Source: Marivivens geojensis (GTDB lineage: Bacteria > Pseudomonadota > Alphaproteobacteria > Rhodobacterales > Rhodobacteraceae). From it: DNA of 64,000 nt. The stretch lies in contig NZ_JALKCU010000005.1 in NCBI RefSeq assembly GCF_023540835.1, positions 1 to 64,000 of the forward strand, given 5' to 3'. The translations under genes and the position numbers were made by a program. This document shows, one piece after another, positions 10,604 through 30,573 of the stretch. The notes beneath the pieces are model-generated. The model saw only the letters and a list, made by a program, of their open reading frames with translations, ran no database searches and was not told the origin of the DNA. Every line of letters starts with the position of its first letter. The stretch's first letter is position 1.

Positions 10604-13027
10604 CTAGTCCGCGGACATCGACGGCAACTCCACGCCTGTGTAATAGCGAACCGAGCCACTTTTTCGCTGTCCGATGCCTCGTTCGGAAAGCTGCTCGTTT
10701 AGAACGCGCTTGGTGACCGGCCTGAGGCCGTTGGAGTCACACCAGATTTTATAGCGTAAGTAGAGTTCGGATTGCTTTGTTTCAGCGGTTGGGCTCAGAT
10801 TGGTTCGATCTGACAGAAACTCGCCCAGTAGGTCGCTGTCTGATCTATAGTTCGCCACTTCGGCTTTCATGACAGGACTGTGCCGTAAGCCATCTTTCAG
10901 GTAGCGCTTTGCACCTGCGACCATCCAGGCAAGGATGCCATCGGCCTCGGCCAAGAGCTTCGCTTCTAGCCCCGTGTCCTGCTCCTCTAGGGTAAAAGTC
11001 CGGTTGAATGGGACAATCACCATGCGACGCCATATCCCATTATCTGTGCCCTTAATGATGGGGCGATGATTGGTGCGCACCCAGGGGGTAAATCGCGGCA
11101 GGAAGGTGAAATGTTCCTTATATAGGTACCGAGCCGAAATGGGCTCACGACCAGCAAGCTGTTTGGTGATGTTTTCGTCTAACATCATGCCGCCGGGAAG
11201 TTCGTTGATCGATACCAAACGCGCACCGTGGAGCATTGCCAAGTCCGATCGGGCACTATGATCGTCGTTTCGCCTCGATGCCAGTAGTGAAGAGGGTGCG
11301 ACTGTCGAGTGCGCCCCCATGATCGCAGATACGATATTCCCAAAGATTGATTTACCGTTTGCCCCCTTGCCGATGCAAAATACGATAACCTCTTCGTCAG
11401 TGCGCCCGGTCAAAGTGAGGCCTAACAATCGGTGAATTGCGTCGATCGTTATGCCGTCGCCGAGGAAAACATCGTTCAGAAACCGCGTGAATGTAGGGCA
11501 AGCCGCCCCCGGTACATAATCATGCGCGATGTACTTCGTGATGTAGAGTGAGGGTTCATTCGTGCGCAGTGTGCCTGTCCGTAGGTCTACTATCCCGTTT
11601 CGAACGCCGACAAGGTCCGCATGAGCGTCTAATTCCTCGGGTAGAATGCTCATCTTTGGTTCGGACTTGGCCAGTTCAAGCATAGCTTTGATCCGCGCTT
11701 CGGTCTGGAGCGCTGCCATCATCGAAATAACGCTTTTCCATGCGTCAGGGTTGGTCGCACCGTTTTGCATGGCTAGGCGATGGAGTTCTAAGACGGTCTC
11801 TTTCGCCGCCTCGATGTGTTCACCCAACTCGCACCATAGCCATTTTTGGTCATCTTTTGACCATCGTAACCACTTACCAATCGAAACAACAAAGACCATC
11901 GCGCCAGCATAACGATCCCTGAAGAACCGTGCGCCAATGAGGTCGCCCCTTAGGCTCCAGTCCGGTTGTGCCGAATTCGCAATATTCGTCGTTGCTGTTA
12001 TGGACCGACCGGGGGCTATTACACCTGCGCAGCTACGCTGAATTGTACTGGCCCTGTAATCTTGTCGATCTTGCCACTTAGTTCTTTGCGCGAGCCCGGA
12101 CTGTTCAAAGACCGCTTCAACAAAGGCTTGCAGGTCGACCTCGTCTTGATAGTCATTTGCGGCCCAGTAAGCTAAGCGGCGTGCCAAGTGATAGTCGGCT
12201 TCCGATTGTGACGAGAACGGGTTGGCATTTGTCAGTGGGTCTTCATAGTCCTGCCATCGGCCCTGCCAAAGTTCGGGTTCGAAGTTTTTGAAGTACGCCA
12301 CGGCTTCGTCCACCTTGCGGTTTTCGGGGCGTAAGCCATCCGTCGCTATTTTGCCGGGCGTTGCCTTCGACCTGTCTAGCTGATCCAGCCCGGCCGAAAA
12401 CGCGTTGAGAATTTCTTGCGCTGTGTAGCGGGGACCATGCTCGATTATTTTGACAAGCGGGAAGGAGCCCGGGTCAGTGGCGTATGTCTCATTGCCATCG
12501 GTTTTCGTGAACAGTTTCATATGCCGAAAGCCAGGTAGGCGGAGCAAACGTGTAACGTCAACAGCCGCCTTATCCGCGCCAAATCGAACGAGGCCTCGGT
12601 TTAAACCGCCAGTCTGATCAGAATCGAGTTTTTCACCTCCAGAAAGAAGCCAGTACCAATGTTGCTTGGCGCCAACGCTACTTTGGACAACGATAGTAGG
12701 AGTTAGGATTGCGCGCAGGTTCTGCAGCTGCTCTTCCGTTGCATGATCCAAGTCGGCGTGGACTCCTCGAACCCTATTAAGGTTCTCTATTTTGCGCTGC
12801 CCTGTGAACTCATTGACGGCGATGTAGATTGCCGCCCCTTCAGCGTTCAGCGTTTCAAGTTGAGGAAGCAGCTGTTCCACCTGTGCGCTCGACAGGACTG
12901 TGAAGCGCTTACTTAAGGGATCGGACTTTGGCTTGTCCTTCTTGTCCGTGTAGGTCTCGATGTTAAAGCGAGCTTCGGACGAGGGGTCGAGCAGGTCTAA
13001 GAATTCGATTGCGGGGTGTGCCATCAT
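10604..13027 (-). CDS. P4/D5-type primase-helicase
   Basis: An 807-residue replication protein. The first third resembles a RepB/archaeo-eukaryotic-type primase (GVHADLDHAT with the paired Asp, about residue 85, then QHWYWLLSGG and RLLRLPGFRHMK). The last half is an SF3 D5-like helicase with Walker A GKGANGKS (about 550), a Walker B/sensor region (SINELPGG) and WVRTNHRP. It would prime and unwind DNA during element replication. The ATG at 13027 overlaps the stop of the AlpA gene (ATGA) and has GGGGAGG upstream, so I chose it over a longer frame from 13093. The gene group is typical of satellites and integrative elements. Confidence 0.88.
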   Translation of the reverse strand: MMAHPAIEFLDLLDPSSEARFNIETYTDKKDKPKSDPLSKRFTVLSSAQVEQLLPQLETLNAEGAAIYIAVNEFTGQRKIENLNRVRGVHADLDHATEEQLQNLRAILTPTIVVQSSVGAKQHWYWLLSGGEKLDSDQTGGLNRGLVRFGADKAAVDVTRLLRLPGFRHMKLFTKTDGNETYATDPGSFPLVKIIEHGPRYTAQEILNAFSAGLDQLDRSKATPGKIATDGLRPENRKVDEAVAYFKNFEPELWQGRWQDYEDPLTNANPFSSQSEADYHLARRLAYWAANDYQDEVDLQAFVEAVFEQSGLAQRTKWQDRQDYRASTIQRSCAGVIAPGRSITATTNIANSAQPDWSLRGDLIGARFFRDRYAGAMVFVVSIGKWLRWSKDDQKWLWCELGEHIEAAKETVLELHRLAMQNGATNPDAWKSVISMMAALQTEARIKAMLELAKSEPKMSILPEELDAHADLVGVRNGIVDLRTGTLRTNEPSLYITKYIAHDYVPGAACPTFTRFLNDVFLGDGITIDAIHRLLGLTLTGRTDEEVIVFCIGKGANGKSIFGNIVSAIMGAHSTVAPSSLLASRRNDDHSARSDLAMLHGARLVSINELPGGMMLDENITKQLAGREPISARYLYKEHFTFLPRFTPWVRTNHRPIIKGTDNGIWRRMVIVPFNRTFTLEEQDTGLEAKLLAEADGILAWMVAGAKRYLKDGLRHSPVMKAEVANYRSDSDLLGEFLSDRTNLSPTAETKQSELYLRYKIWCDSNGLRPVTKRVLNEQLSERGIGQRKSGSVRYYTGVELPSMSAD

Positions 13028-13236
13028 GCCACCTCCCCATTGCGCGCATTCATGCGCGCTTCGATCCAGTCGTCGATTTCTGCGCGAACCCATGCAACAC
13101 GGTTTGCACCGATGCGAATGCGTTTGGGGAAGCAGCCTTGCGCCTCTAGGCGGCGCAGTTGGTTCTGGCTGTAAGGGATGCGCTGAGCGATCTCGTCGGC
13201 GACGATAAGCTCCGGTTTAGTGTTCTGGGTGCCCAT
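13024..13236 (-). CDS. AlpA-family excisionase-like regulator
   Basis: A 70-residue winged-helix protein (IAQRIPYSQNQLRRLEAQGC, FPKRIRIGANRVAW, EIDDWIEAR) of the AlpA/MerR-like family. AlpA activates the integrase gene in the P4-like element CP4-57 and similar proteins act as excisionases. The ATG at 13236 has GGAGG 8 bp upstream; the longer frame from 13359 has no such site. It overlaps the primase start by 4 nt and lies between the integrase pair and the primase, which is the expected order. Confidence 0.88.
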   Translation of the reverse strand: MGTQNTKPELIVADEIAQRIPYSQNQLRRLEAQGCFPKRIRIGANRVAWVRAEIDDWIEARMNARNGEVA

Positions 13237-13318: not shown

Positions 13319-13915
13319 TCAGGCGAAGTCGTTAAGCGTACGATACCCATGACGCTCAATCAGGTCGCGCACTAGTCGCATGTGAACGCTCAGTGGGGAG
13401 CCCGATTTGGCAATCTCTGCATCGTGCCGGTTGTTATGGTTTTCAACTAATTTCCGTAGCTTAGCTTTTGTTCCGGCGCCGATCGCCGTGCGAGCTTCGC
13501 TTACAAGCTGATCGCGTTGTTCTGGAAACTCCTCCCATAATGCAACGGCTGCTGCTCGCAGGAATGCTTGATCCACGGAGACTTTCGGCCCTTGCCGTCT
13601 GCGGCCCCCGAAATCCATGTCGCGTTTGCCGCCGTGAACGGACTCGACGAGGGCTTTGAATATCTCAATGCCACCCAGTGCGCTGTCGCCGCGTTCAATC
13701 GCCTCTAGCGTTTCAAGGGCTGTTTTTGTTGCCGAGAATTTATGAGGTTCTGATAATGGGTCGACCAGTTCTAGGTTGCGCCGTGCTGACGCGAGAAGGG
13801 CGCAATATCCCTCATTTTTTAATGTATTTTGGGGCCCCAGTTGGGCCTGCAGCTTAGCGGCATGAAGCAGCGCTGTGCCAGCGCGGTCCAGTGGATTTTT
13901 GCCTTCTTCACTCAT
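13319..13915 (-). CDS. Hypothetical protein of the integrase operon
   Basis: A 198-residue soluble, charged, mostly helical protein with no membrane segment and no motif I recognise (a Gly/Arg patch FGGRRRQGPKVSV sits near residue 105). Its start overlaps the integrase stop by 4 nt (ATGA), so the two are translationally coupled, and an AlpA-like gene follows 83 bp later. The position suggests a backbone function of element A, such as control of excision or replication, but that is only context. Confidence 0.65.
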   Translation of the reverse strand: MSEEGKNPLDRAGTALLHAAKLQAQLGPQNTLKNEGYCALLASARRNLELVDPLSEPHKFSATKTALETLEAIERGDSALGGIEIFKALVESVHGGKRDMDFGGRRRQGPKVSVDQAFLRAAAVALWEEFPEQRDQLVSEARTAIGAGTKAKLRKLVENHNNRHDAEIAKSGSPLSVHMRLVRDLIERHGYRTLNDFA

Positions 13916-15156
13916 TGCTCTACCCCCTTAACGATCTCGGTTAAGTCAGATGTCCACGCTGCCATAGCGGCGCGCTTCTCGGTCAAGTAGTCATATCGGT
14001 CGTAATGAATCGAACCCACGTCCGTCATTGCGTGGCCTTGTAGCCTGTTCCGCATCTCTAGAGAGATGCCCATAGACCCCGATAGGGTTTTAAAGGTCCG
14101 CCGAATATCACGAGGCGAAAAGCTCACCATGCCGCTCGCGGCCACATACTTGCGCACGGCATTTGTGAGAACATCGTAACGTCGTGGTGTCGCCCCTCCT
14201 TGGGCGGGGAAGAGGTATGTATCGTGCCCCGTCTCGCGCTTGATTTCGTCCAGCAGCTGCAGGTGAAAATCTGTAAGGGGAACAATGTGTGGCTCTGAGG
14301 TCTTGCCCCGCGTCTTCCTGCGCTCCCCGGGGATGATCCACACCATCTGGCCCAAATCGAACTCGGCCCATGTTGCGTGCAGAACCTCTTCGACCCGCTG
14401 CCCGGTTGCCAAAAGAAACTTGAGGGCCAGCAGCATCGGCGCTGTGAGGTTGTCGGAGTGCCAGACCTGCCGCACCTCGTCGCGAGACAAAGCCCGCATG
14501 CCGCGTGGCTTTCTGCTAACCGTCTTTTTGACCGTCGCTACCGGGTTGTGTTGCAGATTAAACTTGGCGGCTTGTCCTCGCCAGCGCGTCATGGACTCAG
14601 CATTTAGGCCCAATTCAAAGGCGGCACGAAGATAGGCTCGCACATTATCGCAGTGAACCAGTGCGCCCCGCTGTGCAATCGGCGTTAGGGTGTCAAGAAC
14701 GTCCTCTTTAGTAATCTGGTGGGCAGGCCGCTCTAGAAGGGCGGAAGGAATATTCTTCTCCTTGATCCGTTTCACCTCTACCGCCGCGCGTTTTCCGTCT
14801 ATTTCGAGGTCGGCCACGTAAAGATCGATTAAGTCGCCCAACGTGCCGAGTGCTCGTTGTTCCAGCCTAGCATCGATGGCTCGCTTCTTCTCGACGGCTG
14901 GGTCTTGTCCCTCATTAACCTTCTCGCGCAGGGCCCCGGCTTTGAGGCGGGCTTCCTTCAGTGACAGGGCTGGGAACTGGCCGATGGCAACCTGCTTGCG
15001 CTTCCCGTCCTCAGGTGAGGTGTACGACAAGAAGAAGGTCTTCTTGCCTGATGGGGCGACTGCCACGCCGAAACCTCTGCAAACCACGTTTGCATCGCGC
15101 AGGCGGTACACGGACGGTTTCGGTTTTGCGTCTCGTATTGTGCGATCGGTCAGCAT
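13912..15156 (-). CDS. P4-type tyrosine integrase of element A
   Basis: A 414-residue integrase: N-terminal DUF4102 arm-binding domain (LTDRTIRDAKP, then GKKTFFLSYTSPEDGKRKQV), a central core-binding domain (about 95-200) and the catalytic domain. Catalytic residues visible are Arg in TGQRVEEVL, the RDIRRT motif (second Arg), His in LQGHAMTD and the Tyr nucleophile in HYDRYDYL. The family inserts DNA into tRNA 3' ends. The gene begins 170 bp left of the 46-bp tRNA repeat at 15326, so it should act on the tRNA-fMet site. Unusually it lies next to the distal repeat, not next to the intact tRNA. Confidence 0.93.
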   Translation of the reverse strand: MLTDRTIRDAKPKPSVYRLRDANVVCRGFGVAVAPSGKKTFFLSYTSPEDGKRKQVAIGQFPALSLKEARLKAGALREKVNEGQDPAVEKKRAIDARLEQRALGTLGDLIDLYVADLEIDGKRAAVEVKRIKEKNIPSALLERPAHQITKEDVLDTLTPIAQRGALVHCDNVRAYLRAAFELGLNAESMTRWRGQAAKFNLQHNPVATVKKTVSRKPRGMRALSRDEVRQVWHSDNLTAPMLLALKFLLATGQRVEEVLHATWAEFDLGQMVWIIPGERRKTRGKTSEPHIVPLTDFHLQLLDEIKRETGHDTYLFPAQGGATPRRYDVLTNAVRKYVAASGMVSFSPRDIRRTFKTLSGSMGISLEMRNRLQGHAMTDVGSIHYDRYDYLTEKRAAMAAWTSDLTEIVKGVEQ

Positions 15157-15325: not shown

Positions 15326-15371
15326 CTCATAACCTGAAGGTCGTAGGTTCAAATCCTACCCCCGCAACCAA
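15326..15371 (+). repeat. attR: displaced tRNA-fMet 3' end between elements A and B
   Basis: This is an exact copy of 67-112. Only the anticodon loop to CCA portion is present and the sequence to its left (CAGGCT replaced by CCTCACT) cannot form the 5' half, so it is not a tRNA gene. It separates the tyrosine integrase (left) from the serine recombinase (right). The recombinase gene's stop codon and last codons lie inside it. Confidence 0.9.
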
Positions 15372-17018
15372 CGTAACCGACCCTCCTGCGATAATGGACT
15401 GGCGTTTACCTCTATCTCCCTCACTTAATTGAAGAATTCCGGCCAAATCGCCGACCAATTCCATCTGATGCCCACCTCGCGCATCGGCATCCGGAACCAT
15501 CCTCACTTCTGAAATGAGCCCGCGCAGGATCTCAATCGCCTCTGCCCGTAAATGGTCTTCGCGGAGTGCGACGCTCAGGGAGTGAATGTGCTCTCTGAAG
15601 CGGGTGCTCATGCTCGGATGGAGCCGCAATGTTGGAGCAGGGGGCTCTGAGGCGAGTTCCCGTTCGAGGGCCTCTTTGGCGGCTTCATGTTCTGTGAGCT
15701 TCGCGATCATGGAGGGGTGATACATCCCCTCTTCGACGGCTTTTGTGATTTGGTCGATCGCCGATTGCGTTTTTGCGAGTTTGCGTTCGGCTTTCTCCCG
15801 TTCGGCTGAAACATTGGCTGCATAGCTATTGTAGGATTTGCGGTATTGGTCGGCGAAGGCGCTGACCATTTTGGGGGACCATAGCCGGTCCCGCAGGCCT
15901 GTGATCACACGATCTTCGAGGTCTTCTCGTAGGATGGTCGCACGATTGGTACAGATCGCCTCACCTTTGTTGCGGGCGGCGGCGCAGCCGTAGCGGGTCT
16001 TATTGATGAGCGTATAGCTCGATCCATAGCAGCCACACTTCACCAATCCGGAAAACAGATAGACGGGTCGACGGGCACGTTCGGGCCGTAGACCTGCGGT
16101 GAGACAGCCTGCGGGGTTAATCTTGACGCGGATGGCCTTTTGACGGGCTTTGACTGCGTCCCAGAGATCGTCATTGATGATCCGGAGCTCTGGGACGTTT
16201 GTGTATTGCCATTGATCGGACGGGTTCAGGCGCGCATGACGTTTGCCTGTTTCCGGGTTCTTCGGATAGGTTTGGCGGTTCCAGACCAATCGACCAATGT
16301 AGAGTTCATTATTAAGGATGCCTGTTCCGCGTTTTGCGTTGCCTGCGATGGTGGAGGGGTTCCATTCTCCGCTACCCTTTCCGCTGATAGGACCTGCGAT
16401 ACCTTCGTTGTTCAGCGCTTTGGCAATGGCTTGAGCGGAGGTTCCTTTGGCGTAGTCTGTGAAGATGCGACGGATGACAGCGGCTTCGTCTCGATGGATG
16501 GAGCGATCCCCCGTGGTGACGGTTCCATCGGGGAGGAGTTCACGGATGACGCGATAGCCATAGGAGATCCCGCCTGCGGATTTACCTTGATGGATACGGC
16601 CTTCCAATCCGCGATGGGTCTTTTGCGCGAGGTCTTTGAGGTAGAGGGCGGACATCGTCCCTTTGAGGCCGATGTGGAGTTCGCTGATCTCACCTTCGGC
16701 GACTGTGAAGATTGGGATGCCAAGGAAGGTCATTGTTTTGGCAAAGCCTGCGATATGTTCGAGATCCCGCGAGAGGCGGTCGAGGCTTTCTGAAATGACG
16801 ATATCGAACTGGCCTGCTTTGGCCTCCGCCAGAAGCTCCTGAAACTGAGGACGATGTTGCGTGGCGCCGGAGATCGCGCGGTCGGCAAAGGTTCGAACAA
16901 TGGTCCAACCTTTGCTCTGCGCCAATTGGCGGCACACGCGAAACTGGTCCTCGATTGAGGCATCGCGTTGCTGGTCACTGGAAAAGCGGGCGTAGATAGC
17001 GGCACGGTATGCGGGCAT
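15327..17018 (-). CDS. Large serine recombinase of element B
   Basis: A 563-residue serine integrase: resolvase domain with nucleophile Ser in YARFSSDQQ (about 13), SESLDRLSRD and the EGEISELHIGLKGT stretch, a recombinase domain (about 165-280), a zinc ribbon (KCGC ... CTNR, about 337-370) and a coiled coil (about 400-450). Such enzymes recombine attP and attB without other element genes. Its final residues, VAGVGFEPTTFRL, and its stop codon are antisense tRNA-fMet sequence in the 15326-15371 repeat, so its attachment site overlaps its own 3' end. A small gene lies 30 bp upstream. Confidence 0.93.
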   Translation of the reverse strand: MPAYRAAIYARFSSDQQRDASIEDQFRVCRQLAQSKGWTIVRTFADRAISGATQHRPQFQELLAEAKAGQFDIVISESLDRLSRDLEHIAGFAKTMTFLGIPIFTVAEGEISELHIGLKGTMSALYLKDLAQKTHRGLEGRIHQGKSAGGISYGYRVIRELLPDGTVTTGDRSIHRDEAAVIRRIFTDYAKGTSAQAIAKALNNEGIAGPISGKGSGEWNPSTIAGNAKRGTGILNNELYIGRLVWNRQTYPKNPETGKRHARLNPSDQWQYTNVPELRIINDDLWDAVKARQKAIRVKINPAGCLTAGLRPERARRPVYLFSGLVKCGCYGSSYTLINKTRYGCAAARNKGEAICTNRATILREDLEDRVITGLRDRLWSPKMVSAFADQYRKSYNSYAANVSAEREKAERKLAKTQSAIDQITKAVEEGMYHPSMIAKLTEHEAAKEALERELASEPPAPTLRLHPSMSTRFREHIHSLSVALREDHLRAEAIEILRGLISEVRMVPDADARGGHQMELVGDLAGILQLSEGDRGKRQSIIAGGSVTLVAGVGFEPTTFRL

Positions 17019-17279: not shown

Positions 17280-17937
17280 GGGAACCCCGCTCAAGCTCTC
17301 TCTCTGCGCAATATTGTGGATACCTCCCCCAAAATCCGGAAAACTCTTTGCGAACCGCGAAAAATCTTAAAGTGTTGAGTTGGTGGGTGATGCGGTGACC
17401 GTCGGAGACGATGGAGACGTCGCCCAAGACGGCGCGCCCGAGACACCGTAAACCGCGAAATTTACGGAATTTATCCAAGCGAAACGATCGAGGAAGGGAC
17501 CGGAGTAGGGGGAGACAGAGAGAAACCTAAACACGGGATATCAGTATACTCCCGCGACCCTGACCCAATCTCGAAGCAGAAGCCATTTCCCATTGGATGT
17601 TGTGCTGAAAGGTGAGCATGTGGCCGGTGCGGATGAGAGGTATCGCTGGGTGATTTGCTATTTATAGTTGATCGATCTTTCTGGAGGCTGATAAGGGAAG
17701 CTCAATGAATTGAATGAAGACAAAGTGTTGATATTTTTAATAATTCAACACTTTGCATTGGATTTTTTGATACGGAGAAGTTACTGTAATTAAACCCGAG
17801 GTTGATATTTTTTCTTGTCCCTGTGAGCTGTCTGAGTCTTGCACTTAACGTAGTCGTTGGGAATAGTGTCCGTTAACGTAGAAGAGATTTGGTATTTTTA
17901 TCGTGTTTATCTTTTATTTGAAGGGGAGTCTTCTTTG
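17280..17937. other. AT-rich intergenic control region
   Basis: Divergent gap between the recombinase block and the restriction-modification gene. It becomes strongly AT-rich after 17640. No gene is supported. It holds the inverted repeat at 17721-17755 and two copies of GTTGATATTTTT (about 17727 and 17802), which may be binding sites for a controller of the restriction gene. Confidence 0.5.
17721..17755. promoter_or_regulatory. 11-bp perfect inverted repeat upstream of the restriction gene
   Basis: CAAAGTGTTGA (17721-17731) and TCAACACTTTG (17745-17755) are perfect complements with a 13-nt AT-only spacer. It lies 183 bp before the ATG of the type IIG gene. The spacer and lack of a tight T-run favour an operator over a terminator, but either is possible. 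Confidence 0.5.
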
Positions 17938-20900
17938 ATGGCCGATATTCAAAATTCATTTATTTCTAAGTCATTTCTACGTTCCGTTTGGGCCCATGAA
18001 TATGAAACCTTCAAAGATAGCTTGGAAGAGGCCGAGCTTCTCGAAAGGTTAAAACGCTGGGCAGCGCGCGGGGTCCAGAAAGAAACGACTGCCCAATCTG
18101 CATTGCTGCAAGAATTCTTCTCAGCGACGTGGGGATATGTTCACGCAGGGCAAGCGGGCGGTGAGGAGAATTACTCCCTTTATCCTGCATTTCCGGTTGC
18201 TGGTGCAGGTCAGCGTGGCGGGACAGGCGAGGCTGACGCCGCTCTGGGGCATTTCACGCCGAATGAGGCAATCCCAATTCCGCAGGTTCTGGTCGAGTTC
18301 AAGGACATCAAGAGCGACCTTGATGCTCCGCAAAAGCGCAAGGGCAATACCCGCTCGCCAGTGAAGCAGGGCCTCGATTATCTCTATGCCGCTCGGAAGG
18401 GCATGTTCGGATATGAACCGATCATTCCGACCTGGGCCATTGTCACAGATATGAATGAGTTCCGGCTATATTGGTCGGATCGCGGCGAGCGGCAATTCGT
18501 CAGCTTCGCAATTGAAAGCAAGAACCTGTTCCAGAACGCCACGCTTCTGGATGAAGGCGAAGCAGGCCGTTTCGACCGCTTCCTGTTCTCGCGCCTGTTC
18601 CACCGCGACCAGCTCATCGTGCGTGGCACCAGCGGGCGGCCCGAACTCCTGTCTCTGATCCAGCGCCAGCGGTTCAAGCAAAGCGAGCTGGAAAACCGCT
18701 TCTATCAAGAATACCGCGCCTTCCGCGAACACCTCTACCGCACCCTCCTTGCCCACAACGGGCCAGAAACCGACCGCTTCCCCGGCACCAAGGGGCGTCT
18801 GGTGCGGCTGGCCCAGAAAATCCTCGACCGCGCGATCTTCGTCTTCTTCTGCGAAGACATGGGCCGCGCCCTCAGCTTCCCACCCCAACTGCTCCGCGAT
18901 TACCTGATCCGACAGGCCGACGATCAGTTCTTCGATCCGAACGGCACGGAAATCTGGCAATGGCTGCGGCGGCTGTTCTCGGCCATGAACTCCGGCGCAA
19001 CCTCGTTTGGGGACCATCAGATCAACCAGTTCAACGGCGGGCTGTTCGCGCCTGATCCGGAACTGGAAAAGCTGCACATTCCAAACAGCGTCTTCTGCGA
19101 ACGCGGGCAGGGCCAGAACGAGGCCAGCCTGAAACGTAACGAAACGACTCTGCTCTATCTCTCGGCCAACTACAACTATGCCTCCGGCTGGGCCGAAGGC
19201 ATCGGCGGCGATCACGCACCTTCAGCCAAGCGCGACCCCGAGCGGAACATCGGCCTCTACACCCTTGGCCGCATCTTTGAACAGTCGATCACCGAACTGG
19301 AAATCCTCGAAGCCGAGGAGGATGGTCGCGTCTCGCTGAACAAGGAAAGCAAGCGCAAGCGTGACGGGGTCTATTACACGCCCGAGTGGGTGGTGGAGCG
19401 GATCGTGGACGAGACCGTTGGCCGCCGTCTTGCCGACCTCAAGGCGCAATGCGGCTGGCCGTCCGAGAAACAGGACAAGCTCCCAACTGCGGAAGCCATT
19501 GACGCCTACGAGGCCGAGTTGCGCGACATCCGCATCGTGGACCCCGCCTGCGGGTCAGGCGCGTTCCTCATCACAACGCTCGCCTACCTGCTGGACGAAT
19601 GGAAGGCCGTGCGCAGCATCCGCCGCCAGATCGGCCAGACCATGGCCGAAGAAGATTGGACCGACGACGCGATCCGCGACATCCTGCGCCGCAACCTCTA
19701 CGGCGTGGACATCAACCCCGCCTCGGTCGAGATCACGAAACTTGCCCTTTGGCTGCACACCGCACGATCCAACAAGCCGCTGTCCTCGCTCGATGACCAT
19801 ATCCGCGATGGCAACAGCTTGATCGGACCGGAGTTCTTCACGGGCCTCGCCCCTTACACCGCCGAGCAGCAAGAGCGGATCAACGCCTTCGACTGGCATT
19901 CCGCTTTCCCCGGCGTTTTCGAGCGGGGCGGCTTTGACTGCGTAGTTGGCAACCCGCCCTATGTGAAGCTCCAGAATTTCCGCAAGGTCCATGCCGATAT
20001 GGCGGCCTTCCTCACCCGCGATCCGGCGCAGGGCGGGGCCTATGCCAGTACCTAGACCGGCAACTTCGACCTCTACCTTCCCTTTGTCGAAAAAGGCATC
20101 CAGCTTTTAAACGACAACGGGCGGCTGGGCTACATCGCCCCTTCGGTATGGCAGATGAACGAATACGGCGCAGGGCTGCGCGGCTTTGTCGAACAGGGCC
20201 GTCACCTTTGGGGCTGGATTGACTTTGGTTCCTACCAGATTTTCGACGAGGCGACGGTCTACACCGCCCTCATGTTCTTCTCGAAGCAGCCCAACACCCA
20301 TGTTGCCGTGGTGAAGGCACCGAACGGCGTGGTGGCCGAAAGCCCGTGGGAGGCGCAGGACATCCACCTTCCCTATGCCCGCCTGTCCTTTGGGGATCGC
20401 TGGCTATTAGTGACGGGCAAAGAACGCGACCTGATCGACAAGCTGGGCAAGACCGGGCGGCGGCTGGACGACCCTGCTGTATCGCGCAACATCTTTGTCG
20501 GCATCCAGACCAGCGCCGATCACATTTATCATCTGAAACGCCTCGGACCGAACCGATACGAGGAGAAGCCGCCGAAAGGCGAAAAGCGCGGTCGCGTGGT
20601 CGAGATCGAAGACGAAATCATGAAGCCTCTGGTCTCGGGGGTTGATGCAAAGAGGTATCAGACACCGGAGACGAATACCTTCCTGCTGTTCCCCTATTCA
20701 GTTTCGGAAGGCCGCGCTTCGCTAATCCCTGCAGCGCGGATGGCGACGGAGTTTCCCGATGCATGGGCATATCTGCAAGGTCATGAGGAAACTCTGCGCG
20801 CCCGCGAAGGCGGAAAGTTCAACAACGATGACTGGTATCAATTCGGGCGTTCTCAGAACATTGGAAAGCAGAACGTTGAGAAGATCATCGTTCCGCGTCT

Positions 20901-21774
20901 TGTTATGAGCATAGCCTGCGCAGTTGATCCTCATGGCCAATACTACCTCGACAACGTGGACGTTGGCGGGGTCGGCGCTGCGCGAAATGTCTCGCCGTGG
21001 TTTTTGGCCGCCGTGATGAACGCACAGGCTGCTGATTTTGCCTTCCGTCGAATATCTAAACCGTTCCGGGGCGACTTCCGGTCTGCCAACAAGCAGTTCA
21101 TCGCGCCGCTGCCGATCCCCAAGGCCCCGCCCGAGGATCAGGCCGCACTCGCGCAGGATGCCGAACGACTGCAAGTGCTGCACGATCAGCGCAGGCAGGC
21201 ACTGGCCGACATCGCGGGTCGCATGGGCGCTGTCCGCATCCGCCCGCGCCCCGTCGAGTGGCTGTTCCCCGGCCTGTCTGATCTGGACGAGTTGAAAGAC
21301 CAAGCCCCTAAACGCCTGATCGGCACCGACCGCCGCGCATGGGCCAAGGAGCGTCTGGCCAAGGAAATCGAAGCCTGCCACGCCACCCTATGTGAGCACT
21401 TGAGGCCCGGCGTCCCCCTTGCCGCAGAACTGGTGCGCGGCGAATTGCGCTTCCTGATCGACGGCATCCCCGCCATCACCGGCATCTTCCCCCCACCCGC
21501 AGAGGCCCCCTTCCTGCTGGCGCAATGGTCGGTCATGGCCAGCCGAACCGAGGTGACGGACAAGACCACAGGGGCAAAGCTGGCCGACATGCTGCGAAAG
21601 GTTAGCCCCAGCGCCGAAGCCCACATCATGGCCGAGGTGATCCGCCTGCAAACCAGCATCGCCGCCGACGAGGCCGAGATCGCCACGCTGGAGGGGCGGA
21701 TCAACCAGACGATCTATCGCCTCCACAAACTGACCCGTGAAGAAATCGCCCTGATCGAAAGCGCGGCGCGGTGA
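17938..21774 (+). pseudogene. Type IIG restriction-modification enzyme, split by an amber codon
   Basis: One continuous 1278-codon frame interrupted only by TAG at 20053-20055 (codon 706). N-terminal PD-ExK-like nuclease signature (EADAAL ... VLVEFKDIK, about 98-120); adenine-methyltransferase motif I DPACGSGAFL (about 534) and motif IV NPPY (about 671); the part after the stop carries the remaining methylase fold, a TaqI-like specificity region and a coiled coil. The expected sequence at the stop is STQTGNFDLYLPF, so a CAG to TAG change is likely. The ATG at 17938 has GGGGAG upstream. The first ATG after the stop is at 20155. The nuclease half could still be made without the specificity domain. 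Confidence 0.88.
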
Positions 21775-21799: not shown

Positions 21800-22675
21800 A
21801 TGAAACGAGAGCCGATCCGGATCACCTACAAGCTCAAGTTTGAAGGCGGCGATGCCGACCGGCACCAGCTGGAAGCCTATCCCGCCGCCCAGTCGTTGGA
21901 GGGGATCATCTGGGCGCTGTCGATCACGCTCAACTATGGCGTAACTGGTAAAATCCGCCAGCGCGGCGACCTGTCCGGAGCGTGCAAAGTCTATATCTCT
22001 CCGCCTAAGCGCGGGAGCGTCCTCTATGAATTGAACATTCTTGTTCAAGACAACGCATTCATCGCGCTCATTTTGGGTGGCTGGGCGGTCAATACTGCCA
22101 CGCCGTATATCAACGCCCTTATCGGCCATGTTTTCAATTCTGCGCTAGGCGTGGCCAGCGAAATTCCTGTGAGAGCGCGAAAATACCTCAATAAACTGAA
22201 TGAAGATGACCTGCAAAAGGTTGTGCATCGTATCGAGCCGCCACTGACCCGTGGACACGCGGCAATTGGAAAGACCGCCGCGACCGTGTCGCTTCGGGCC
22301 AAGAACACCGATCTGGTCGTGATGGATGAGGACACCAAGTCGTATCTCGAAGCGCGCCTCAAAGACGAGTTCTATTACCTCGACGCCAATGTGACCTCAT
22401 TCAACGTCCTCACAGGCAACGGGCGGCTTTATCACCCTGACGAAGACAGAACTGTGGCTTTCAGCCTGAGCGCCGATCCGTTTGCCGGGACCAAGAACAT
22501 CCTGATCGAAAGCATGAAGCATTATTCGGCGGGGCGCTGTGGCATCGTGCGTATGACCACTCAGCGCGTTGAGACGAAAGAGGGCCGGTTGAAGAAACTG
22601 ATGGTGGCCTCAGCCGAAGAAATCCCGCAGTCCGATTGGGAAGATGGCGTTGACCCGCTTCGCTCGAAGCGGTGA
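21800..22675 (+). CDS. Hypothetical companion of the restriction gene
   Basis: A 291-residue protein starting 25 bp after the restriction-modification frame on the same strand. The N-terminal 85 residues are beta-rich (IRITYKLKFEGGDADRHQLE, CKVYISPPKRGSVLYEL). Then comes a weakly hydrophobic segment (about 89-115, AFIALILGGWAVNTATPY) that could sit in or on a membrane, and a C-terminal beta-rich half. I recognise no enzyme motif. The tight spacing suggests it belongs to the same defence unit. A role as effector or sensor is possible but unsupported by any motif. Confidence 0.68.
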   Translation: MKREPIRITYKLKFEGGDADRHQLEAYPAAQSLEGIIWALSITLNYGVTGKIRQRGDLSGACKVYISPPKRGSVLYELNILVQDNAFIALILGGWAVNTATPYINALIGHVFNSALGVASEIPVRARKYLNKLNEDDLQKVVHRIEPPLTRGHAAIGKTAATVSLRAKNTDLVVMDEDTKSYLEARLKDEFYYLDANVTSFNVLTGNGRLYHPDEDRTVAFSLSADPFAGTKNILIESMKHYSAGRCGIVRMTTQRVETKEGRLKKLMVASAEEIPQSDWEDGVDPLRSKR

Positions 22676-24880: not shown

Positions 24881-26254
24881 ATGAAAGACACATACGCACC
24901 CCCTGTCGACCCTAAAGATGCCAACCCAAGGGCTATCTCTGTCCGCCTCAAAGGTCTGAGCCAGTCAAAGGTCTATGGTCAACGCAACCACGATCATCGC
25001 AAGGGCCCTCAGCCCAAATATGTCGACATGGGGCGGGCGCATCTGAACCGCACCATCGTTTCCCCGCGTCCGGTCGCAGTGATCAAAGATGAGGTCAAGG
25101 CGCTGCGTCAGGGTCGTCTGCGTGAGATAAAATCTACGGCCTGCATCGTAACGTCCGGCATCATCACCTTCGGCCACGTCGCAGCACAATGGTTCGAAGA
25201 TCTGTCGATCGACGATCAGAACGCGACCTTCTTGGCGGTCGCATCTGACATCGCCGCGCGGCTTAACACGAGAGTCGAAGGGTTGGTGGTGCACTGCGAT
25301 GAAGCAACCATTCACGCGCATTTTGAACTGCGGGGGTACAGCAACGCGGGAGAACCGCTGTCGAAGGTGACGAAGCCGACGATCATGTCTGAGGTGCAAG
25401 ACATCGCCGCTGCGGCTGCGCAGCGGTATTGCCCGCTCATTGAGCGGGGGAACAAAAAATATGTGCGGCTCGCGGCGGGGGCCGACTACGCCGATACGGT
25501 CAATAAGAGTGTGAAGCAGCTCCATCGAGAGCTGCCTCAGGATCTGGAACATTTGAAACAGAAGGTCACTGCCACCGCAGTGGAAATTGAAGACCTTGAG
25601 GCATCGGCCGCGAAGACGCGGCGGCTTCTCAAGGCGTTGGAAGGAGAGCGTGCGCTCTCTGAAAGGGAACTCAAACGGGCAGCCATCTACAAGAGGCGGC
25701 TGGAAGAAAAAGAGGCGGCGTTGTCTGCGCTGGACGCGCAGTTGATCCAGCAAAGGCTGGACCAGCACGCCGCACAAGAAGCGATCCAATTGAGCCGGCA
25801 AAGCCTGGCTGAAGAGAGGATCGCTCACTCCCATAAAGAAGAAAGGCTCAAGCGTGGTGCCGAAATGATCGACCGCCAAGCGCGGGCGGTGAAGGCTCAG
25901 GCCGAAGAGGTCCTAAAGAGAAAAGAAGCCGTGGAGAAGAAGGAAGAAGTGGCGGACCGCATGATCGGAGCACTGGAAGCTGCGGTTGATGGTTTGAGCA
26001 ATGATGCGATCCGCTTCGACCTCGAAGAACAGCGGCTGAAGGTTGATGACCTGACACCGTTCAAGAACCTACCTGACGGGTTCAAGCAGCGCTTCTCTCA
26101 CGCCGTGTCGTCACTGGCAGAGGTCATCGCTGTGACCCGTCGAAAGGCGCGGTGGGTCGATCATATGATGGGGAAGGTGCGCGGGTTCTTCGACCGTGAA
26201 GATGTGAAGAAGGAGGCAAAGGGGGTGGTTGATGAGTGGGAGAAGGGGAGGTGA
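24881..26254 (+). CDS. MobV (Pre/Mob)-family relaxase
   Basis: A 457-residue protein. The N-terminal 215 residues match the Mob/Pre relaxase domain: an early SVRLKGLSQSKVYGQRNHDH segment and the metal-binding motif HCDEATIHAHFELRG (about 138-152). From about 215 to 370 it is a long charged coiled coil, as usual in this family, with a basic C-terminus. MobV relaxases nick oriT and pilot single-stranded DNA during mobilisation through a helper's conjugation pore. No conjugation genes are present, so element B should be mobilisable, not self-transmissible. Inverted repeats lie upstream at 24602-24740. Confidence 0.85.
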   Translation: MKDTYAPPVDPKDANPRAISVRLKGLSQSKVYGQRNHDHRKGPQPKYVDMGRAHLNRTIVSPRPVAVIKDEVKALRQGRLREIKSTACIVTSGIITFGHVAAQWFEDLSIDDQNATFLAVASDIAARLNTRVEGLVVHCDEATIHAHFELRGYSNAGEPLSKVTKPTIMSEVQDIAAAAAQRYCPLIERGNKKYVRLAAGADYADTVNKSVKQLHRELPQDLEHLKQKVTATAVEIEDLEASAAKTRRLLKALEGERALSERELKRAAIYKRRLEEKEAALSALDAQLIQQRLDQHAAQEAIQLSRQSLAEERIAHSHKEERLKRGAEMIDRQARAVKAQAEEVLKRKEAVEKKEEVADRMIGALEAAVDGLSNDAIRFDLEEQRLKVDDLTPFKNLPDGFKQRFSHAVSSLAEVIAVTRRKARWVDHMMGKVRGFFDREDVKKEAKGVVDEWEKGR

Positions 26255-26647: not shown

Positions 26648-28438
26648 TCAGAGAATCTGGTCATAGCCAAAGTTGCACGCGAGCAGGATATCGGTGGGCT
26701 GGTAGAGTTCATTCTGTCTTCGCCGCCTTCCCGCTTCCGAGATGAGGTGTAGGTTCTTCTTCGCACGGGAACAAATAACGTAGAGGAGCTTGTTTGCAGC
26801 CGCGACCTTGTCTTCCTCGTTGAAGTGCGGGACCATGCCTTCCAGCAGGCCGAACGCGATCACTGCCTCGAATTCGGCCCCCTTTACACCGTGGATCGTT
26901 GAAACGGTAACCCCAGTCTTTTCATCGAAAACTTTCCGGAACATGGCGACCTCCGCGATCGCGGTAGCACCGTCCTCGACGAGCCGGTCCAGCCTTCGCT
27001 TCGATCCTTCGACGAACGCCTCATAATGTTCAGTTAGCATTGGGGAGCTGTTGCGATCGATGCCGAGGGCGGCAAAAAGTGCATCGAAGCATTCGAGCAG
27101 ATACTTCAGACCGTCAGTTTCGGCGGAGGAGATGGCATTCGAAGTGCGGAGCAGGCTTTTCCTCGTCATCGCAGCAGTGTTGACGCCGGCCAAGTCGAGC
27201 GCAGCGATGACTTCACCGGCCCAGCGGCTGCGCCGGATGTAGAGTTGCGGCGAAGCCTCAGTCAGGATGATCCGAGAGAGCTTGTACCAGAAATTGTCGA
27301 TATCGCGGGCAAAGGGCACCATTCCGGGGCCAGAAAAGCTGTAATCTGGCAACGCGGCCACAAGCTGGCGCGTCATGCCTGCAAGCGGTAACCATTGCGG
27401 CCCTACGATGCAAACCTCGCCTGGCATGATCCCCAAGGTCTCGACGTTGTAGCGTATCAGCCGCACGACCTCGTCAACAAGCTCAGAGTGATGAGTCGCA
27501 AAATCGTAGGAGATCGCGCTCTTGTAGGCTTTGTACTTTCCGCCCGCGCTGATCTTCGAGGTGAGCTGGTTGTAGTTCTCGAAGTAGGTGACGATGCGAT
27601 CGGACGAGCGGTAGTTCACCGATAGGTCCATCTCGGTAAAACTGACTCCGCTGAGAGCGGAGAATTCGGCAGGCGTGATCGCATAGCCGCCGAGCGAGCC
27701 ATATATCGCCTGATTGGGATCGCCGACGATGAAGGCATTTGCCTTGCCATTCGATGCCTTTAGGATAGCGCCGATTATCGCGTACTGAATCTCTTTGGTA
27801 TCTTGATATTCATCGACCAGAACCGTTGCGAAGATCGATCCAAGCAAAATCCCGATCGAGGGAATATCGCGAACCAGCTGAAAAGCGTAGTCGAGGATCA
27901 TTTCGAAATCGACCTGTCGATTAGCGCGTAGCTCTGCCCAATATTGCTGAAGCAGTGCCTCGACCTTCGCACGCTTCCAGTCAGGGCAAGAGATGACATA
28001 GCCAGCGGACGTGAAATGATGGCCGCAGTCGAAGATGCGCAAGCCTCCACCATGCTGACGGCATAGCAGATCGAGGGCGCGCTCGGTGTCATGCGCGTTG
28101 ATCACTCGAAATCCATGTTTCAGCTCGGGGTGATAGATGGCGTAGGGGCGCAAGATCCATTCGAGGCAAAAGGAATGGATCGTACCGATCCAGAGCTGGC
28201 TGGTCTCGACGCCGAGCTGTTCGATCCGTTCTTGAATTTCATCGGCGGCGCGATGGGTGTAGGTGATTGCGACCACACGCTGCTTATCGGAGGTGAGCAA
28301 AGACAGTTCGCGCGCGATCTTGTAAATCAGCGTACGGGTTTTGCCGCTCCCTGGACAAGCGCTGAGGAACACGCTGCCGGGCTGCTCGATCGCCTTGACC
28401 TGGTCCGCATTCAGGTCGTCCGCATTCCATACGAACAT
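26648..28438 (-). CDS. gajB: UvrD-like helicase, Gabija GajB-like
   Basis: A 596-residue SF1 helicase: Q-like start LNADQVKAIEQP, Walker A ACPGSGKTRT (about 27-36), ITYTHRAADEI (Ia), GTIHSF, Walker B VLVDEYQDTKEIQ (about 208), GDPNQAIYGSLGG (III), SVNYRSS (IV), TVSTIHGVKGAEF (V) and LLYVICSRAKKNL (VI, about 553). Gabija pairs an OLD-type nuclease (GajA) with a UvrD-like helicase (GajB) to block phage; here the helicase start and the OLD gene's stop share one base, in the GajA-GajB order. It is longer than the roughly 500-residue reference GajB. Assignment is by domain pair and order. Confidence 0.8.
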   Translation of the reverse strand: MFVWNADDLNADQVKAIEQPGSVFLSACPGSGKTRTLIYKIARELSLLTSDKQRVVAITYTHRAADEIQERIEQLGVETSQLWIGTIHSFCLEWILRPYAIYHPELKHGFRVINAHDTERALDLLCRQHGGGLRIFDCGHHFTSAGYVISCPDWKRAKVEALLQQYWAELRANRQVDFEMILDYAFQLVRDIPSIGILLGSIFATVLVDEYQDTKEIQYAIIGAILKASNGKANAFIVGDPNQAIYGSLGGYAITPAEFSALSGVSFTEMDLSVNYRSSDRIVTYFENYNQLTSKISAGGKYKAYKSAISYDFATHHSELVDEVVRLIRYNVETLGIMPGEVCIVGPQWLPLAGMTRQLVAALPDYSFSGPGMVPFARDIDNFWYKLSRIILTEASPQLYIRRSRWAGEVIAALDLAGVNTAAMTRKSLLRTSNAISSAETDGLKYLLECFDALFAALGIDRNSSPMLTEHYEAFVEGSKRRLDRLVEDGATAIAEVAMFRKVFDEKTGVTVSTIHGVKGAEFEAVIAFGLLEGMVPHFNEEDKVAAANKLLYVICSRAKKNLHLISEAGRRRRQNELYQPTDILLACNFGYDQIL

Positions 28439-30573
28439 CAGAGTGTCGCTAGGATGGTGTTGATGCGGTCACCGGGAAATGTTTTGAGCATCTCGGCACG
28501 CACCGTATCAAAATCGATCTCGCCGCGGCGAAAGCGCCCGACATGGTCGCGCATGGCGTCAATTTGCCACTGGGAAACCAGCCCGGAATCAAGCTGCACC
28601 TTCAGCCGATGCGCGAAAATGCTTGCCAGCGTTTCGACGGAGATCGGTCGGTGTGCGCTGAACAGGGCGGACAGCAGATAATCGGGAAGGTGGACATCTG
28701 GGGTGATGGCCTTACCGAGAATGATAACGAACCAGCCCTTGCCGACATGCTTGGCTATCGTGAGCACGCGCGTACCGTAGCGGGCAATGTCGCCGGATTC
28801 GAGGTCCGCCTTGGCCTGGGCGATAGTTGCGGCGTCGCTGTAGACGTCGTTGAGGATGGACACGACGGCATCGCTGTTGCCAGCCAGGATAAAGTCGACC
28901 TCGAAGGTATGCTGCGCAAAATGGGCAGTCAGCCAAGCATTACCGTGACAGAAGGTACTGAGCCGGCTGAACCGAGCCGCGCCGGATGTTTGCGAACCAA
29001 GTGCCTTCTTTTTCGCCTTGATCTCGGCATCGCTATCGAGGGGATCAGGCGTCAGGTCAATGAATGCGCGATCAAGGTCAGTGATGATCGCGCAGTTCTT
29101 GCGGATGCGCAGGTCGTGGAATAGCACCCCAACATTCTCGAAGCCGGTGCTGCGGATATTGATCAGGCTGATGCCGAGCTCATCTAGACTGAGCCCGAAC
29201 ACCTGCTTGACCAGGATCGGGACTAGAATCTCCTCGGTATCACCTTCGACCAGCAGCACGCTCCTCGCGAAAAGCAAATTGCTGCGCACAGCGTCGAGAT
29301 AACGCTGGATATTGCCGATCTGGCTAGGATCTAGGCCGGCTGCGGGCTGAAAGACTTCACAGACGCCTTCATTGCGCCCGAGGATGTTTATGTTTTCGAC
29401 GTTGCTGACTTCTGAAATGTGTGTCGAATGCGTCGAGTAAATGATTTGCGTGTCGTCATAGTTCAGGCGATCAAACAGAGTCTTCTGAATATGGGTGTGG
29501 ATGTGTGCCTCTGGTTCTTCGATGATGAGGAAATTGGCGAAGGTCTGCTTGACCTTCTGATATTTGAATTCGAGCAGCTTGAGCGTCAAATAGATGAGGT
29601 TCGCGCCACCGAGACTCAGCTCATGAATCCCACCCTCATAGCCGACCTCGGACTCGCCGACAAAAAGCTTTAGCGACTGGAACAGGCGATCAGCTTCATC
29701 GGACAGGTCAGACCTGATCGATAGAGATTTCGGCGAATAGGTTTCGCCAGCCGCGTCGGTGATGGTGTCACGGATATCCGTGCGGATGGCACGTACATCG
29801 TCAAGACCTTCTATCGCATTGTTAAGATTGGACACCAAATCACTGATCGGGGCGAAGGCTGTGGGGTTGATCTCACCGCTCTTCCCTTTGAGCAGCGTCA
29901 GCAGAGGATTTGTACGGTTGTTTTGGAACTCGGCCACGACATCGCGGAGCGCTTGGACGAAGGTGAAGCCTATTTCGCGCGAGATAGAGAACATACCGGG
30001 GACGATCCCGCCGATATCCGGAGGGGTGAGTTCGGTCGGAAAGGTGACCGTGTCAAAGTCGCCAACAAGTGATCTGTATGTATTTGGGTCGCCAAAATCG
30101 GCGCTGCTCCTTCCGGTAAAGATCGTCTCGTAATCCGAAATGCTCATCTCGCTGCGAAGTGCCGCCAAGCCTGCATGATCTCCGGCAACGAGCTCACCGA
30201 GCTTCTGCCGAATTACAGCCTTTGGACGAAAAATCAGATTGTATGTCGCCCGATCGACAGTAGCGGCGGTGATGTTGCCGGCTCCGTGCAAGAACAACGA
30301 CTGGACCGTCTCGTCCTGCGAGACATCGGTAAATTCGAGGCTGATGATTATCCAGTGCCCGCGCCACTCACCGATGCCGCGATGGAAGTCGCGTTCGTCA
30401 AGGCGGTGGGCCATGCGGAGCAAATTATCGTCAAGCAGCAGCCGGATCGCGCGAAACAAATTCGTCTTGCCCGACCCGTTCTCGCCTATGATTGTGTTTA
30501 CGCCTCTTTCGAACTTCACGGTCGCGCGGGCAAAGTTTCGGTAATTGACCAGCTGAAGTCTTGATATATGCAT
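28438..30573 (-). CDS. gajA: OLD-family ATPase/TOPRIM nuclease, Gabija GajA-like
   Basis: A 711-residue protein. The ABC/SMC-like ATPase half has Walker A GENGSGKTN (30-38), signature LSLGGANLIYLTLKLLEF (about 325) and Walker B FLIIEEPEAHIHTHIQ (about 353), followed by the STHS switch. The TOPRIM half has VLLVEGDTEEILVPIL (about 441) and the acidic CAIITDLDRAF (about 495). This is the domain order of OLD nucleases and GajA. Reference GajA has about 580 residues; the extra length lies after the TOPRIM core. The next gene is a UvrD-like helicase, starting one base before this stop. A free OLD nuclease pair of another type is the alternative. Confidence 0.82.
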   Translation of the reverse strand: MHISRLQLVNYRNFARATVKFERGVNTIIGENGSGKTNLFRAIRLLLDDNLLRMAHRLDERDFHRGIGEWRGHWIIISLEFTDVSQDETVQSLFLHGAGNITAATVDRATYNLIFRPKAVIRQKLGELVAGDHAGLAALRSEMSISDYETIFTGRSSADFGDPNTYRSLVGDFDTVTFPTELTPPDIGGIVPGMFSISREIGFTFVQALRDVVAEFQNNRTNPLLTLLKGKSGEINPTAFAPISDLVSNLNNAIEGLDDVRAIRTDIRDTITDAAGETYSPKSLSIRSDLSDEADRLFQSLKLFVGESEVGYEGGIHELSLGGANLIYLTLKLLEFKYQKVKQTFANFLIIEEPEAHIHTHIQKTLFDRLNYDDTQIIYSTHSTHISEVSNVENINILGRNEGVCEVFQPAAGLDPSQIGNIQRYLDAVRSNLLFARSVLLVEGDTEEILVPILVKQVFGLSLDELGISLINIRSTGFENVGVLFHDLRIRKNCAIITDLDRAFIDLTPDPLDSDAEIKAKKKALGSQTSGAARFSRLSTFCHGNAWLTAHFAQHTFEVDFILAGNSDAVVSILNDVYSDAATIAQAKADLESGDIARYGTRVLTIAKHVGKGWFVIILGKAITPDVHLPDYLLSALFSAHRPISVETLASIFAHRLKVQLDSGLVSQWQIDAMRDHVGRFRRGEIDFDTVRAEMLKTFPGDRINTILATL

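Follow-up and report, generated by a model that had tools for sequence, protein, structure and literature searches.

The DNA examined here is a stretch of 64,000 nucleotides from Marivivens geojensis, henceforth the window, and it contains a gene of the type IIG restriction enzyme kind whose reading frame is interrupted by one amber codon. The original prediction left three outcomes open for this gene, namely an inactivated system, a case of read-through, and a sequencing error. We asked which of these best accounts for the locus by combining analyses of the reading frame, domain composition, relatives, substitution pattern, and genome context.

A Single Amber Codon in One Long Frame

The frame extends from an ATG at 17938 to a TGA at 21772-21774 on the forward strand and comprises 1278 residues if the TAG at 20053-20055, codon 706 of 1278, is read through. 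The features of the gene are as follows.

17921-17928, + strand: probable ribosome-binding site AAGGGGAG, recognized by eye 9 bases 5' of the ATG at 17938
17938..20052, + strand: type IIG front part, 705 codons, with putative nuclease, helical region, and methylase to just past motif IV
18235..18303, + strand: candidate PD-(D/E)XK residues D100 and E120-F121-K122, invariant in all five aligned sequences
19540..19560, + strand: DPACGSG, adenine-methylase motif I, codons 535-541, located from alignments
19951..19962, + strand: NPPY, adenine-methylase motif IV, codons 672-675, located from alignments
20053..20055, + strand: amber codon TAG, codon 706, a position at which none of the nine relatives covering it has a stop
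20056..21774, + strand: type IIG back part, 572 codons plus TGA, with the methylase end and the presumed target-recognition and C-terminal region
20155..20157, + strand: ATG, codon 740, start of the 539-codon open reading frame listed 3' of the TAG

The ATG at 17938 aligns with the first methionine of four relatives; the TTG at 17857, from which the listed open reading frame starts, is simply its mechanical first start. The original prediction held that both sides of the TAG lie in one frame and named many other stops as one finding that would speak against it. Its position for the TAG is exact, and we find no other stop in the 705 codons 5' or the 572 codons 3' of it. In 1000 mononucleotide shuffles of each part, the 5' part acquired a mean of 21.8 stops (minimum 10) and the 3' part a mean of 17.6 (minimum 5), so that the stop-free frame on both sides of the TAG is not due to chance.

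Family Identity and Domain Composition

Judged by its sequence matches, the gene is one type IIG restriction-methyltransferase, as originally predicted. Residues 97-1275 of the read-through product match positions 2-1180 of the 1182 positions in PADLOC model PDLC03629 (REase_MTase_IIG) with 2235.5 bits. Each half taken alone also matches this model, the front part at positions 2-610 of 1182 (1256.1 bits) and the back part at positions 612-1180 of 1182 (953.4 bits), and the two halves thus adjoin at model positions 610 and 612. The read-through product also aligns along its length with its relatives. Two other defense systems were considered and rejected: the best NCBIfam PglX match (BREX) scores 79.9 bits against a curated cut-off of 500, and the best DrmMI match (DISARM) scores 174.1 bits compared with 2235.5 for the type IIG model.

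Matches to the Pfam models Eco57I, MmeI_Mtase, N6_Mtase, and MmeI_hel were obtained. The Eco57I domain occupies residues 586-769 and therefore spans the TAG, which lies 31 codons past NPPY; the back part alone still matches positions 108-171 of the 171 in the Eco57I profile. The original division into a front half with the methylase and a back half with the specificity domain is thus slightly off because the TAG cuts the methylase domain itself: motifs I and IV are indeed in front, but the methylase end is in the back half, together with a recognition region that is presumed. In the C-terminal region no Pfam recognition domain was matched, and the PADLOC model spans this region to residue 1275.

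The N-terminal region is a candidate nuclease fold on the basis of its sequence signature. Of 17 distant members of the family, 8 have a similar D...ExK arrangement; among the other nine, four lack that stretch and five lack the signature there. No nuclease Pfam domain matched the read-through product at an E value of 0.001. AlphaFold2 models of residues 1-471 (mean pLDDT 37.7) and 79-1278 (mean pLDDT 39.7), built from alignments of five sequences each that took in 4 of the 10 relatives, are too poor to define domains.

Relatives and the State of Codon 706

We gathered ten relatives at 54-86% identity, five from genome contigs, one from viral contigs, one from plasmids, and three from whole genomes (G302, G791, and G471). 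At an E value of 1e-100, and with the window genome counted, matches were found in 2 of 385 whole genomes in the comparison by class and in 3 of 390 in that by order. The same-genus genomes G117, G843, and G879 gave no match at this threshold, and G117 gave none at 0.001 either. A second copy of the gene was not found in the window genome, near-identical DNA was not found in Escherichia coli genomes and plasmids, and an exact 26-base pattern had no match in viral contigs; the top protein hit in phage records has 27.8% identity.

Codon 706 is covered by nine of the ten relatives, and it encodes glutamine in seven (CAG in four, CAA in three), arginine in one (CGG), and lysine in one (AAG). The change from CAG to TAG proposed in the original prediction is therefore compatible with the relatives but unproven, given that L096, the closest full-length relative (84% identity), has CAA.

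Seven of the ten relatives are uninterrupted over their matched length. L097, which lies on a 4.8 Mb contig (G302:C1), carries an independent interruption, a one-base deletion near residue 337 (near 10855-10870). In L005 from Gluconobacter the homology starts at residue 548, only 107 bases in from the edge of its 3.7 kb contig, and the frame is lost, with a short out-of-frame stretch that contains three TGA codons. In L006, a locus from a metagenome-assembled genome, the frame changes near residue 219 and homology is lost near residue 354. These last two breaks could be artifacts because the contig title of L006 gives about 4x coverage and the homology in L005 begins near a contig edge. Because the window copy was itself picked for being broken, the fair count of broken copies is two to three among the ten others.

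Age of the Stop

To place the stop in time we counted lineage-specific changes. Where the codons of L096, L002, and L091 are alike, the changes unique to the window lineage are silent and replacement in a ratio of 51:8 before the TAG and 26:7 after it. Ratios of 108.8:16.2 and 91:21 were counted for L096 and of 34:5 and 22:4 for L002, the relative from Nitratireductor arenosus. Silent changes thus prevail on both sides of the TAG in the window lineage, and therefore the stop looks young, which agrees with the recent origin suggested at the outset. These counts are small and noisy, and a short period of decay could be missed, since L091, which is uninterrupted, has a ratio of 15.5:14.5 after the same point.

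Pairwise dN/dS values for the window copy before and after the TAG are 0.090 and 0.168 against L002, 0.088 and 0.246 against L091, and 0.091 and 0.240 against L097, all with dS near 1. The more distant L004 (0.192 and 0.162) and L095 (0.135 and 0.263) have dS above 1.7, and comparison of the window copy with L096, L003, and L098 gives saturated dS in one or both halves. A contrast of the same kind is seen between relatives, with 0.043 before and 0.194 after for L002 and L091 and 0.060 before and 0.159 after for L091 and L097, indicating that the back part is generally less constrained. In the substitution pattern of the window copy we see no sign of long neutral decay.

Genomic Neighborhood

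The gene is surrounded by the following features.

10604-13093: P4-type primase
13912-15156: tyrosine integrase
15327-17018, - strand: serine recombinase with GVGFEPTTFRL at its C-terminal end
21800-22675, + strand: DUF7946/DUF7947 gene, 25 bases after the type IIG stop
24881-26254: MobV-like relaxase, a weak match below the cut-off
26648-30573, - strand: GajB/GajA pair (Gabija), aligned with PADLOC models over almost the whole model length at 820 and 1015 bits

A tail like the GVGFEPTTFRL of the serine recombinase is seen in genes whose end extends into a tRNA or an attachment site. When 15 window genes were compared with the loci of the ten relatives (3.7 to 23.9 kb each, E value 1e-5), the type IIG gene was matched, and the only other matches were weak ones to an integrase in L002 and L004 (27 and 30% identity). 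Since its neighbors are otherwise unshared, the type IIG gene appears to move by itself, on DNA that looks mobile. The DUF7946/DUF7947 gene was not found beside the type IIG genes of the relatives and is not a conserved neighbor in the DNA compared. The GajB/GajA pair lies 5 kb from the broken gene. A perfect 11-base inverted repeat, CAAAGTGTTGA/TCAACACTTTG, with a 13-base AT-rich spacer is located at 17721-17755, about 180 bases before the type IIG start; it has one copy in the window and is absent from the inverted repeats reported ahead of the type IIG gene in seven relatives, a comparison that took in 5 of the 10 repeats of L003.

Explanations for the Interrupted Gene

Taken together, these data make it probable that a solitary type IIG gene, of the kind that unites nuclease, adenine methylase, and target recognition in one chain, was lately knocked out on a mobile-looking stretch rich in defense genes by a single nonsense substitution, with marking and cutting both lost. 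Most likely this is an event of an ordinary kind, the loss of a working defense gene. Translation would stop at codon 706, within the methylase fold. The resulting chain of 705 residues would retain motifs I and IV as well as the candidate nuclease residues, but it would be without the methylase end and the presumed recognition region. Because these parts are missing, the truncated product should neither methylate nor cut specifically. According to the H. pylori report (PMC3936762), type IIG enzymes use a single recognition region for both activities, so that the truncation should remove both. Cutting and marking would be lost together because both share the missing part, and the host should therefore not be left with an unprotected nuclease. 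The position and frame of the TAG, the family of the gene, its uninterrupted relatives, and the coding-type substitution pattern on both sides are observed; the loss of activity and its harmlessness to the host are what we infer.

The main rival to a recent null allele is an error of sequencing or assembly that hides an intact and active gene. The coding constraint on both sides of one interrupted codon is what such an error would leave behind, and the source assembly is a draft of 18 contigs (3.18 Mb). That assembly is, however, rated 99.97% complete, at which level a lone substitution error should be uncommon, and no interruption is seen in GajA and GajB close by, whose nearly complete model matches speak against a region full of errors. 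We therefore regard an error as unlikely. Amber read-through or suppression, yielding a little full-length enzyme, would fit the conserved sequence on both sides of the TAG, and here we followed the suggestion in the original prediction to look for amber suppressors. Among the 48 tRNA genes matched by Rfam RF00005 in the window genome, with anticodons read by ARAGORN, none has a CUA anticodon, and the single tRNA-Gln gene seen has UUG. This answers the suggestion in part, as the scan labels no tRNA-Tyr or tRNA-Ile and some suppressors may lie beyond its reach. The same two tRNAs are missing from the scan of the same-genus genome G843 (45 matches), and neither two sequence patterns nor three stretches that were examined closed this gap; the absence of these tRNAs is probably a blind spot of the tRNA search. 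The prfA gene, encoding release factor 1, has no stop and matches its model at positions 8-358 of 361. TAG also serves as a terminator here, ending 9 of 43 long open reading frames, the type IIG one counted, in a mechanically chosen and largely nonoverlapping set of window frames of at least 150 codons. The lack of a stop at codon 706 in any of the nine covering relatives indicates that this codon is not a conserved recoding site. Neither the tRNA genes read nor the intact prfA supports read-through, which we consider highly improbable, and of the three outcomes left open inactivation is best supported.

Two further readings were weighed. The back half could be made from the ATG at 20155, which begins the 539-codon open reading frame, and assemble with the front half into a two-piece enzyme. 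A different restriction enzyme, GmrSD, offers a precedent: according to PMC12707154, an introduced stop led to two proteins by re-initiation, and their complex was active. No ribosome-binding site is seen by eye before the ATG at 20155, however, and a restart there would omit codons 706-739, including residues 707-711, which are invariant in all five aligned sequences; none of the seven uninterrupted relatives is split at codon 706, and such an enzyme is extremely improbable. Recurrent on/off switching of the type IIG family, by null mutation and reversion in populations, could be read from the two to three of ten other copies that are broken, each differently (L097, L005, and L006). Yet the breaks fall at differing places without a tie to any repeat, those possibly artifactual in L005 and L006 are among them, and 7 of the 10 relatives are uninterrupted, making such switching very unlikely. 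A wider form of this idea, in which a solitary type IIG family is repeatedly nulled by single mutations once it has arrived on mobile DNA and near-intact alleles form a silent reservoir that could be revived under phage attack as a slow, repeat-free switch, seems to us quite unlikely as well. We therefore retain a recent nonsense substitution as the preferred reading.

Significance and Comparison with Known Systems

If the gene was recently inactivated in this way, it offers a clean example of a defense gene shortly after its inactivation, on a stretch that also carries an intact-looking Gabija pair, and an automatic defense count of the window genome should not score the type IIG system as active. 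Should the breakage seen in two to three of ten relatives be general, it would help to measure how quickly type IIG genes that are mobile become inactive.

The window gene is one more case of the known restriction genes with premature stops. A study of the lifespan of restriction systems notes that REBASE contains many corrupted genes (PMC4687349). Literature searches that were not specific to the PDLC03629 subfamily brought up no paper linking amber codons to type IIG pseudogenes, and we do not claim that the case is unreported. Relative to that subfamily, with its Eco57I/MmeI-like methylase, the read-through product of the window copy matches nearly the whole model and differs in being interrupted by the TAG at codon 706. 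In Cutibacterium acnes the type IIG gene PPA1614 is likewise split by a premature stop, giving two frames in some clade IA strains and one intact frame in other strains according to PMC8989293; this is another organism, and the likeness considered here is the split by a stop. Premature stops are also described for some alleles of the Helicobacter pylori type IIG genes JHP1272 and HP1353-HP1354 (PMC3936762), in which frameshifts occur at homopolymer repeats, whereas the stop in the window gene is of the substitution type.
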